DNA from: Cyanobium sp. Tous-M-B4
GTDB taxonomy: Bacteria; Cyanobacteriota; Cyanobacteriia; PCC-6307; Cyanobiaceae
NCBI RefSeq assembly: GCF_024345395.1
Contig: NZ_JAGQBA010000002.1
Coordinates: 372,001 to 436,000, forward strand
Reading direction: 5' to 3'
DNA: 64,000 nt
Shown: positions 27,963-30,863 of the stretch, in pieces
Layout of the letters: every line of letters begins with the position of its first letter
How positions within the stretch are numbered: the stretch's first letter is position 1
Program-made: the position numbers and the translations under genes
Notes under the pieces: model-generated
The model's database searches: none
Told to the model about the DNA's origin: nothing
Seen by the model: only the letters and a program-made list of their open reading frames with translations

Positions 27963-28430
27963 TTAGAAAAACTGATCGAAGTTGTCGAAATCGACTGCAC
28001 TGAAGGTGCCTGCTTCCACCTGAGCCATAAGCCGTTCCAGCTGCACCCACAGGGCGCCAGCTGTGGCAATCGACAACACAAAGGAAACCAGCAGGGCAAC
28101 CCCGGCCGAGAAACCGAATACCTGCAGGCTGCCGCCAATAAACAGGGTGATGCCGATCACCACGCCGAAGTAAGGCAGGGTGACCGCAAAACTGCCAAGC
28201 GGTAGCAGGGGCAGGCGATCCTGTTTCCAGCCCTCCAGCTTGTTTTCTACCAATTTGGCGAAGGTGAGCCCGCAGAGCACGCCGATGGCCAGGCCCACAC
28301 CAGCCACTAGGTAGGGGGGCTGGATGATCTGGGCATATTCCAGCAGGATGTCACTCGCATCTAAATCGCCGTACATCCAGCCGTCCGGCAGGGCGCTGCT
28401 GTCCATGGCGTCGAGGGGCAGGCTGGCCAT
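27963..28430 (-). CDS. Membrane protein of unknown function
   Basis: 155 residues with about 20 soluble residues of an Asp-rich N-terminus, then several hydrophobic segments: PYLVAGVGLAIGVLCGLTFA, LGSFAVTLPYFGVVIGITLF and AGVALLVSFVLSIATAGALW. The C-terminal tail is acidic (SAVDFDNFDQFF). No known domain was recognised; the pattern resembles small conserved cyanobacterial membrane proteins. It lies 38 bp downstream of the periplasmic binding protein gene on the same strand, so it may be cotranscribed with it. Confidence 0.7.
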   Translation of the reverse strand: MASLPLDAMDSSALPDGWMYGDLDASDILLEYAQIIQPPYLVAGVGLAIGVLCGLTFAKLVENKLEGWKQDRLPLLPLGSFAVTLPYFGVVIGITLFIGGSLQVFGFSAGVALLVSFVLSIATAGALWVQLERLMAQVEAGTFSAVDFDNFDQFF

Positions 28431-28468: not shown

Positions 28469-29629
28469 TCAGGGTTCCCAGCGCTGGGAACCCAGGAAGG
28501 TGAGTTCGACGAAGCTGCTGCCGTTGTGGTCCTCGGGACCCAGTTGCACCCGGTAGCCACCAAGGTCTACATCGCGCATGGTCTCAAGCGCGGTCACAAA
28601 GCGTTGGCGGCTGGGTTCCGGCCCGGCTCGACGCAGGCCTTCCACTGTCATTTTTGCGGCAAGGAAGCCCTCCAGGCTGTTAAAGCCGAAGTGCGGTTTG
28701 GCCTGCTGGCGCCGCATCAATTCCTGGTATTCCCTCACCACTGGCACCCTTTCGTTCCAAGGGAAAGGCACCACCTGGGCGACGCCAATGCCACTGGCCT
28801 CATGGCTTTGCAGGGAGGCACGCAGGGCGCTGGTACCTACAAACGACACGTTCATCAGCTGGGCTGTGCTGCCGCGCCGCCGCATCTCGCGGCTTAAGGA
28901 GGCCGAGCTCGGGTAGGCAGCTACCACCAAAACTGCATTGGCATTGGCGTTTTGCACCATGCTGGCTGCCCTGCCGGTTTGGTTTGAGTTGCGCTCAACG
29001 CTGGCAGTAGCCACTGGTTTGAGGCCATGGCGTCTCAAGGCGTTGAGAGATCCCTTGAGGCCGTCTTGTCCAAAGGCATCGTTTTGATAGACAACCGCAA
29101 CGCGATGGCGGCCGCTGCGCACTAAGTAGTCGACCATCCGGTCAATTTCCATGTGGTAACTGGTACGCAGGTTGAACACCATGGGGCGATGGGGCTGGCG
29201 TAGCAGTTGGGCGCCGGTGAGTGGAGCGATCAAAGGGATTTTCTGTTTCTCAACCAAGGGCAACACCGCCTTGACGGTGGGGGTGCCCACATAACCAAAC
29301 AAAGCAAACACCTTGTCGCGCTCAACCAGCTGCTTGGTGTTGCGCAGGGTGAGAGGTGGGTCGTAGCGGTCGTCGAGGCTCAGCAGCTTCAGGCGCTTGC
29401 CATGGACGCCACCTTGGCGATTCACCTCTGAGAAATAGGCCAGAGCCCCTTGCCGGTATTCGCTGCCGAGCATGCCGGAGGGGCCGCTGAGGGCCGCCGA
29501 CTGCCCCAGCACCAGTTCTGTTGATGCCAGGCCAGGCAGGGCCAGCGTCAGGGCCAGCGCCACTGCGGTGCCTACTCGCTCACAAGCGGCTTTCGGCTTT
29601 AACTTCAGCAAACTGCAGCAGTTGGGCAT
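28469..29629 (-). CDS. Periplasmic binding protein, type 1 (branched-chain amino-acid/LIVAT family)
   Basis: 386 residues from the ATG at 29629; the frame continues upstream without stop, but only as antisense of the next gene. A signal sequence spans about residues 16-36 (VGTAVALALTLALPGLAS). The Peripla_BP_6 fold is clear: LVLGQSAALSGPSGMLGSEY at the mature start, FALFGYVGTPTVKAVLPLVE, IPLIAPLTGAQLLR, RHRVAVVYQNDAFGQDGLKG and ALRRHGLKPVATASVERNSN. Such proteins normally deliver amino acids or urea to an ABC importer, yet no permease or ATPase gene is adjacent. Instead it is divergent from a ligand-gated channel homologue, with start codons overlapping on opposite strands. Ligand unknown. 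Confidence 0.88.
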   Translation of the reverse strand: MPNCCSLLKLKPKAACERVGTAVALALTLALPGLASTELVLGQSAALSGPSGMLGSEYRQGALAYFSEVNRQGGVHGKRLKLLSLDDRYDPPLTLRNTKQLVERDKVFALFGYVGTPTVKAVLPLVEKQKIPLIAPLTGAQLLRQPHRPMVFNLRTSYHMEIDRMVDYLVRSGRHRVAVVYQNDAFGQDGLKGSLNALRRHGLKPVATASVERNSNQTGRAASMVQNANANAVLVVAAYPSSASLSREMRRRGSTAQLMNVSFVGTSALRASLQSHEASGIGVAQVVPFPWNERVPVVREYQELMRRQQAKPHFGFNSLEGFLAAKMTVEGLRRAGPEPSRQRFVTALETMRDVDLGGYRVQLGPEDHNGSSFVELTFLGSQRWEP

Positions 29630-30863
29630 GGGTAAGCGCAGGCAAAGGCCTTGGAACGTGCTGGCGATGGTTGCCGTTGTTCTGGCGGCCATCCTGGCAA
29701 TTTTGGGGATCGGGCGCATTGATGTGAGCCCGGTGCTAAGCCGCGATTCTTTGCGTCTCTCCTCCGCATCCCGCGCTCTCACCACCCTGCCCCTCGGCGA
29801 AAAGCCTGCCCTTGGTGTATGGAGCTCCATGCGGGGAGACCAGCTCAGCGCTGGCGAGGAACGGGTCGATCGGGCTGAGCTGGAGCGAGCCCCATACAAG
29901 GTGGAAGTGGGAGTGTATTCGACTAGCAATTATGAGCTAGATCTAACGGTGCCAAGCTATTCAAGTGGTGGCTATGTATGGCTGCGCTGGGAGGAGCCTA
30001 TGCAGCGTTATGTGGAAACTCATGGCGGAGATATTTCCAGCTTGTTTATTGTTCTAAATACCTTGCTTTCTGATAAGGATTCAAGCCTTAGGCCGGTGGG
30101 CGAAATGCCGGTGCGACTTGCCGATGGCGGCTACTATCAATTATTCACGTATGTTGGTCGTTATTATGTAGATAAGGCTAGTTTTCGCCACTATCCTTTT
30201 ATGAATATTAGCCTGCCACTTGTCATTGAGGCTAATGACGTGGATGGAGAGCTCGGTTATCAAAATCTCCGTTTAATTCCAGAGATTCGCAACAGCGGCA
30301 TGGGTCTCTATGCACGCATTATTGGCTGGCTAAATACCGGCTGGTCAATTGCGGAATACCGACACCACTACGCTACAAATTTTGGCCTTGGTGGCGAAGA
30401 AAACGACTACAGCCAGATCCTCTTTGAAATTTCCTATGGCACCTCTTCGTGGTCATCTTTCTGGAGATTGTTGTTGCCACTCTCCGTGCTGATGGCCATG
30501 GTGTTGTTGGTATTTAAGGTGCGGCCTGATGAGCAGGATGCTCGTGCCAGTATCCCGGTCACTGTGCTTCTTACGCTGGTTTTTCTACAGCAAACCTATC
30601 GTGACAAGTTGCCTGATTTGCCCTTTCTTACCTTCCTTGATCAAGTATATGTCGTTGCTTACGTAGTCACGCTGGCAGCGTTTGTGTTGGTGCTATGGAT
30701 TGGGCGTCGCTATGCCGTGATGGAATCGATTGAAGATCCAGCAGAGAAGCATGCACTATTAATGCATCTAAATCGCCTCGACGATATCTGGCCCCTAGTG
30801 GTAGTGCTGGTGGGTGGTGCTGCAATGACCTTCTGCTGGATGACGATCCCCCAAGTTGTTTGA
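29628..30863 (+). CDS. Pentameric ligand-gated ion channel homologue (Pro-loop receptor)
   Basis: 411 residues from the ATG at 29628. A signal anchor is at about 11-29. The periplasmic domain (about 85-275) has the hallmark strands VEVGVYSTSNYELDL (92-106) and YVWLRWEEP (116-124), the Pro loop DKASFRHYPFMNISLPLVIE (182-201), and GWLNTGWSIAEYR with YSQILFEISYG before the membrane. Four segments follow: M1 278-298, M2 about 308-325, the M2-M3 link LPDLPFLTFLDQ (328-339) typical of the family, M3 337-359 and M4 387-407. There is no Cys pair in the loop, as in prokaryotic members (GLIC, ELIC). M2 carries Thr/Leu lining but its ion preference cannot be read. The gene is more AT-rich than its neighbours. 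An internal ATG at 29667 would remove most of the anchor. Confidence 0.75.
   Translation: MGKRRQRPWNVLAMVAVVLAAILAILGIGRIDVSPVLSRDSLRLSSASRALTTLPLGEKPALGVWSSMRGDQLSAGEERVDRAELERAPYKVEVGVYSTSNYELDLTVPSYSSGGYVWLRWEEPMQRYVETHGGDISSLFIVLNTLLSDKDSSLRPVGEMPVRLADGGYYQLFTYVGRYYVDKASFRHYPFMNISLPLVIEANDVDGELGYQNLRLIPEIRNSGMGLYARIIGWLNTGWSIAEYRHHYATNFGLGGEENDYSQILFEISYGTSSWSSFWRLLLPLSVLMAMVLLVFKVRPDEQDARASIPVTVLLTLVFLQQTYRDKLPDLPFLTFLDQVYVVAYVVTLAAFVLVLWIGRRYAVMESIEDPAEKHALLMHLNRLDDIWPLVVVLVGGAAMTFCWMTIPQVV

Follow-up and report, generated by a model that had tools for sequence, protein, structure and literature searches.

A pentameric ligand-gated channel gene coupled to the gene of a separate type I periplasmic binding protein in picocyanobacteria

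In Cyanobium sp. Tous-M-B4, a pentameric ligand-gated ion channel (pLGIC) homologue and a periplasmic binding protein (PBP) are encoded by adjoining genes, and genetic coupling of the two is strongly supported. In all 59 places where this type of PBP was found among 399 genomes of the order, it adjoins a channel gene, although the first scan scored only the best four or fewer candidates per genome and may miss weaker PBPs. We favor the reading, to which we assign a probability of roughly 0.6, that the PBP serves as a sensor subunit of its own and would gate the channel, so that the pair would form a two-part chemoreceptor. This reading is suggested because the PBP lacks a neighboring transporter, has become attached to channels repeatedly and in varying orientation, and is accompanied by a conserved stretch of the channel linker. 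The window referred to below is the whole 64,000-nucleotide stretch of DNA analysed, which belongs to a genome of 2.74 Mb.

The channel and its divergent neighbor

An earlier note had described a Pro-loop receptor-like protein with a Pro loop near residues 182-201 and four membrane segments, and all three points hold. ELIC is the best phmmer match of the channel among PDB sequences, and a profile built from 22 channel sequences aligns to ELIC over profile positions 80-358, which cover the extracellular domain and M1-M3 (Table 1). D182, P190, F191 and P197 are invariant in 22 relatives, P190 being the proline at the loop tip. The AlphaFold model is of low confidence (mean pLDDT 61) and consists of an N-terminal helix, a low-confidence linker (residues about 30-73), a beta-rich domain and four C-terminal helices. 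Searched with Foldseek, it returned pLGICs as all of its top 50 matches, with ELIC and GLIC the best (E 3.5e-14 to 5e-13, TM ~0.4-0.5). The Pfam check proposed earlier is weak when taken alone, because PF02931 had no match and PF02932 (E=0.0022) fell under the Pfam cut-off; the family match comes from the ELIC profile and the fold. By homology, the Pro-loop proline and the predicted four-helix layout, the protein is classed as a member of the pLGIC (Cys-loop/Pro-loop receptor) superfamily.

The extracellular and membrane domains are homologous to those of ELIC and GLIC. Unlike these, the window channel has about 80 N-terminal residues, comprising a hydrophobic segment and a linker, that the ELIC alignment leaves uncovered. 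We know of no PBP partner for ELIC or GLIC. In M2 aligned to ELIC we take Thr to be at 6' and Leu at 9' (prime numbering), and residues -2' to 0' give mixed indications for ion selectivity. Among 24 close relatives, the nearest named ones by channel are Synechococcus sp. CS-1330, at 97%, and Cyanobium usitatum, at 94%.

The neighboring gene had been described as a divergent type 1 PBP gene, and it does lie head-to-head with the channel gene on the opposite strand. Its PF13458 score (199.2 bits versus a gathering score of 31.7) assigns the product, at the level of sequence, to the type I PBPs of the Peripla_BP_6 (branched-chain amino-acid type) family; the nearest solved structures are listed in Table 1. 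Judging by family, an amino acid or an amide-like compound is the probable ligand. The N-terminus, read by eye, is hydrophobic and signal-like, with no lipobox. Together with the predicted topology of the channel, this would place the PBP, the linker and the extracellular domain all in the periplasm. We refer to this PBP type as P6 and to a UrtA-like type as P5.

The earlier observation that no ABC transporter parts lie alongside is borne out for the two flanking genes, a 155-aa membrane protein and an ABC1/UbiB-type kinase, neither of which proved on scanning to be such a part, and for PF02653 permeases, the closest of which is ~104 kb away. The window genome encodes five PF13458 proteins and five PF02653 permeases. 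Two of these PBPs adjoin permeases; the other three are the window PBP, a 53%-identical paralogue (contig C3) and the PBP of locus L162 (contig C1), and no PF02653 permease lies near the PBPs of the window kind in this genome. The L162 protein (L162:4796-5941) is another type I PBP encoded away from PF02653 permeases, and the genes on either side presumably encode flavodiiron proteins. The 155-aa membrane protein (window 27963-28430, - strand) comes after the PBP gene, reads the same way and occurs in 40 retrieved loci; its TctB match is below the cut-off. It is also kept at locus L083, where the PBP has been lost.

No spacer separates the two genes: at the predicted starts, the ATGs overlap in one CATG. 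In the pairs counted as alike in Table 1, the channel start lies 86-95 residues ahead of the domain; any in-frame CATG overlap, counted by script, occurs in 21 of 40 head-to-head pairs. The overlap was considered as a regulatory device and dropped, since with the frames locked a C before the ATG suffices and the starts are predicted; we treat it as anatomy only. The window PBP and channel are two genes on opposite strands, not one polypeptide. Open frames of 800-900 aa in relatives were considered as PBP-channel fusions and rejected by translation and tblastn, which gave no PBP similarity for the extra length; this length looks like an antisense open frame in G+C-rich DNA.

Table 1. Features of the channel and binding protein genes, in window coordinates
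Feature	Position	Strand	Basis
Type I PBP, 386 aa if begun at ATG 29629	28469..29629	-	PF13458 E=1.9e-58; 3lop/4kv7 E about 1e-55
Peripla_BP_6 domain, PBP residues 41-371	28517..29509	-	PF13458 match
CATG common to both predicted starts	29627..29630	.	Read from sequence; 16/40 head-to-head pairs alike
pLGIC, 411 aa, predicted start ATG 29628	29628..30863	+	ELIC E=7.4e-8, profile E=4.9e-12, fold search
N-terminal hydrophobic helix, residues 9-29 (putative signal anchor or signal peptide)	29652..29714	+	Low-confidence model helix; role presumed
Linker box R39-D-S-L-R-L-S45, candidate PBP-contact element	29742..29762	+	R[DE]xLRL[ST] count in paired versus PBP-less channels
Pro loop, residues 182-197	30171..30218	+	Four invariant residues in 22 relatives
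Predicted TM helices M1-M4, residues 274-297, 300-327, 336-367, 371-405	30447..30842	+	Model helices; M1-M3 aligned to ELIC

Coupling, mobility and exchange of partners

Channel relatives (E<=0.001) occur in 106 of the 399 genomes of the order, and P6 (E<=1e-60) in 46. The 59 P6 places comprise 45 that are head-to-head with a pLGIC gene, 5 that are tail-to-tail with one, and 9 that are co-directional with a bestrophin-like gene. A rough estimate at one gene per kb puts the chance of a random PBP neighbor at 2 x 5 / 2,700, or ~0.4% per channel. Seen from the channel side, P6 accompanies 43 of the 48 A-type channels (the best matches of the order search, at least 50% identical, with short fragments excluded), and one more (G282:C155) lies at a contig edge. 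Four A-type channels persist without P6 (G046, G121, G051 and G042); at the G046 locus (L083) the flanking genes are as in the window and the PBP alone is gone. Over a non-random collection of 141 distinct channels, 55 have P6 or P5 beside them and 86 do not.

How often the two genes adjoin in cyanobacteria had been set as a check; the pairing is complete within the order, as seen from P6, and did not turn up in the genomes examined beyond it. A search of the phylum gave a channel match in 39 of 386 genomes. No P5- or P6-type PBP (profile E<=1e-3) lies near the pLGICs of 18 genomes outside the order (19 loci, L187-L205, with flanks mostly of at least 4 kb per side and two with ~1.5 kb on one side), or in the 1.5-kb flanks of the channel in a nineteenth, G550 (L186). 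The idea that the pairing is general in cyanobacteria was rejected on the 18 genomes, and the 86 unpaired channels and the four PBP-less A-type channels speak against it too. The earlier note had named two outcomes as speaking against it, no channel-family match and a pair adjacent in no relative; we examined both, and found a match to the family and adjacency in relatives.

The pair is retained over channels that are 50-100% identical. Many copies share the context seen in the window (sigma factor, 155-aa membrane protein, ABC1 kinase), and others lie in different genomic contexts (the L037 group, L042, L048, L069 and L098). Tandem double pairs occur at L031 and L033 and in G043 and G125. Clades of the channel tree (141 sequences) and the P6 tree (50 sequences) match, one clade being the second tandem pair, in a comparison made by eye on quick searches with long branches flagged. 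In five genomes of genus g5 (L092, L094, L097, L150 and L151), diverged pairs are tail-to-tail, with channels 38-42% identical to that of the window. Movement and duplication of the pair as a unit are part of the strong support for a functional link. At L101 (L101:2062-3189), the channel gene is interrupted between two frames, and the P6 PBP is kept alongside in a longer frame.

P5 (PF13433 E=4.8e-122; solved urea-binding proteins E about 1e-108) lies directly downstream of a pLGIC of another clade in 8 of 8 places in the order at 66% identity or more; the next matches in the order are at most 52% identical. Loci of this kind include L119 and L122-L128, and a ninth case is on the named contig L051. 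The channel and P5 frames of L119 (L119:2767-5156) overlap by 4 bp, and this P5, read by eye, is a lipoprotein. Genome G043 (L130) has a P5-type pair in tail-to-tail form, at 50%. Ten of the 13 channels in the P5-linked clade are paired, and tblastn found no P5 at the unpaired L071, L129 and L104 (a short contig). Past the P5 gene, most of L119 and L122-L128 have a DUF4079 gene.

A bestrophin-like gene, present in 10 of the 399 genomes, has a P6 gene of a sister branch of the window PBP upstream in 10 of 10 loci, with one P6 truncated at a contig end and another split in two. In the window genome (L121:3732-5740, contig C3), the 53%-identical paralogue is followed by this gene with a 4-bp ORF overlap. 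The L121 pair sits between two PstS-like genes. The L121 bestrophin-like protein matches PF14023 with 56.8 bits against a cut-off of 32, and its model (pLDDT 78) is almost all helical, with no separate ligand-binding domain. Foldseek ranks bacterial bestrophin structures best (TM ~0.68, probability 1.00), with a best E of only 2e-3, and the predicted fold is that of a bestrophin. It shares PF14023 and this fold with bacterial bestrophins, and differs in being encoded with a PBP at every locus found. The PBP-bestrophin pairing is the least expected part of the findings.

The linker box and readings of the pair

Five columns, at residues 39, 43, 51, 70 and 73, are conserved in PBP-paired A-type channels and altered in PBP-less ones, and all fall in the N-terminal linker. 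A similar number of clade-specific columns (4-5) came from one of six control clades (L167/L029/L165); the column count alone is thus no evidence, and linker and extracellular domain were compared instead, with a consensus from relatives below 80% identity only and with linker bounds (residues 36-80) set after the column scan. In the four PBP-less channels, which trace to two losses in the tree, 4-6 of 12 conserved linker columns deviate, versus 1-4 of 66 columns of the extracellular domain. The 37 paired channels depart from the consensus at one linker column at most, out of 12-13 conserved ones, and, among those listed, at up to 8 of 74 extracellular-domain columns.

The pattern R[DE]xLRL[ST], written after viewing the alignment just as the region was chosen after inspection, occurs in 41 of the 45 PBP-paired members of a 64-sequence clade, in none of its 18 PBP-less members with known flanks, and in none of 77 channels outside it. 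L025, L060 and L022 are paired and off-pattern by one residue, and the interrupted channel of L101 has RDAQRLS. PBP-less L087 has a near variant (RDSLHLT), and L021, at a contig edge where pairing is not readable, carries the pattern. Well-supported branches provide three independent contrasts (mean 2.4 as expected, 0 opposite and 0.6 equal; sign test median p 0.5), a number that cannot reach significance. The apparent tracking of PBP presence by the box in both orientations, and its degradation where the PBP is missing, is a strong lead.

How might such a pair work? The soluble periplasmic PBP would take up a small molecule, and the ligand-loaded form would dock on the periplasmic face of the pentameric channel, possibly at the linker box. 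Docking would then alter channel opening, and a nutrient or metabolite level would thereby be turned into ion flux, to which the cell may respond. Direct gating of the channel by the PBP appears likely. The earlier suggestion of a separate subunit that presents its ligand is plausible, with contact at the protein level favored by the linker box. The sensor-subunit reading draws further support from the several genomic contexts, tandem duplication, matching clades, partner swaps and a sensor-kinase precedent discussed below. It is weakened by the four PBP-less A-type channels, the 86 unpaired channels, the L087 variant, the small number of contrasts, the control clade and the low-confidence model.

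The PBP might instead merely concentrate the ligand and hand it over to the orthosteric site of the channel, with no lasting contact. Such a relay is proposed for fused and operonic partners in the excerpted text of Tasneem et al. (PMC549065), and the channel does keep a full extracellular domain. However, relay alone does not explain a linker conserved at the protein level together with the PBP, and the bestrophin-like partner, as modeled, offers no separate domain to receive a ligand; we consider this explanation unlikely. Improbable, in our view, is that the genes are mere neighbors in one nutrient response whose products never touch, the PBP serving an ABC importer encoded elsewhere. The genome does have PF02653 permeases elsewhere and a channel can outlive its PBP, but those permeases adjoin PBPs of their own, and the coupling recurs in three orientations, two PBP subfamilies and two channel families. 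The earlier note had also offered shared regulation. The functional link that it drew between PBP and channel has strong support, as the association is kept, mobile, duplicated and recurrent with other PBP and channel families; shared regulation is weak as a full explanation, because there is no shared spacer and because one clade has the genes tail-to-tail and another has them co-directional.

Could the linker conservation be an effect at the level of DNA? With starts that overlap or nearly so, the DNA upstream of the PBP gene is channel coding sequence, and a PBP promoter inside the first channel codons, relaxed upon PBP loss, could leave a pair that functions with a box that is no docking element. 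Yet codon diversity is 0.58 over 11 conserved linker columns and 0.55 over the same residues within the extracellular domain, and since linker codons are as variable as elsewhere, the constraint acts on the protein. Moreover, tail-to-tail pairs, in which the PBP promoter is elsewhere, retain the box in 5 of 5 channels. A DNA effect is thus very improbable.

A wider reading is conceivable as well. Tentatively, and at somewhat less than even odds, picocyanobacteria may use PBP-gated channels as a general receptor class, in which separable type I PBPs are swapped like sensor cartridges between unrelated channels, pLGIC and bestrophin-like, the window-group pLGICs make contact through the linker box as a dedicated periplasmic element, and orphan urtA-type proteins are included.

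Known systems and other channel neighbors

According to excerpts of Tasneem et al. 2005 (PMC549065), some pLGICs of alphaproteobacteria carry fused PBP-I domains, and conserved pLGIC neighborhoods include stand-alone genes for PBP-II or Cache proteins. Joint ligand sensing, by ligand concentration followed by channel binding, is proposed there, and the cyanobacterial pLGIC forms are termed simple. Coupling of a pLGIC to a PBP, fused or operonic in those systems, is common to ours, which differs in having a separate type I PBP in cyanobacteria, with three arrangements, two PBP subfamilies and a linker box that tracks the PBP. Fused PBP-pLGICs and operonic PBP-II partners have thus been known since 2005; the variant with a separate type I PBP is new here. 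In work on DeCLIC (PMC12664993; PMC9897478), a fused N-terminal domain is described as calcium-binding. This is likewise a pLGIC with an extra periplasmic ligand-responsive module, but that module is fused and binds calcium, whereas in the window it is a separate PBP.

Sections of a review of picocyanobacterial binding proteins (PMC8786288) mention orphan urtA genes in marine Synechococcus, whose role and partners are called unresolved. The P5 proteins resemble their products in being UrtA-like PBPs without transporter genes and are encoded directly behind a pLGIC gene; that these are the genes of the review is only possible. Activation of sensor kinases by binding proteins encoded beside them is described in PMC11113362. 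The words 'periplasmic' and 'operon' are absent from the available part of Jaiteh et al. 2016 (PMC4795631). Our search of the open-access literature, with subscription papers mostly outside its scope, found nothing on cyanobacterial PBP-pLGIC or PBP-bestrophin pairs.

To our knowledge, few bacterial pLGICs have an established native ligand or physiological role. Should the PBP be the sensor, an agonist could be found through an ordinary binding assay on the soluble protein, and the pair would serve as a minimal model for gating by a ligand-binding subunit that is separate from the channel. Transporter-less binding proteins of picocyanobacteria would also gain a possible role. Animal glutamate receptors, as discussed in parts of PMC549065 and PMC12664993, have PBP-fold domains fused into them; the window PBP, if a sensor, would be a parallel in the form of a separate subunit.

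Other pLGICs of the collection have other neighbors. In a sister pLGIC clade of nine channels, an MFS gene lies upstream in eight, and a sensor-like protein is encoded before the MFS gene in seven (L088, L089, L074, L090, L091, L093 and L096). Of two of these sensor-like proteins that were scanned, one matched dCache below the cut-off (E=2.9e-5) and the other had no match. At L072 (L072:2707-4795), a pLGIC gene is divergent from that of a Tll0287-like protein (PF11845 E=1.6e-40). The pLGIC gene of L099 (L099:3757-7073) shares 4 bp with a long ORF upstream of it, which we take to be ATP-grasp-like, and an MFS-like ORF lies farther upstream.
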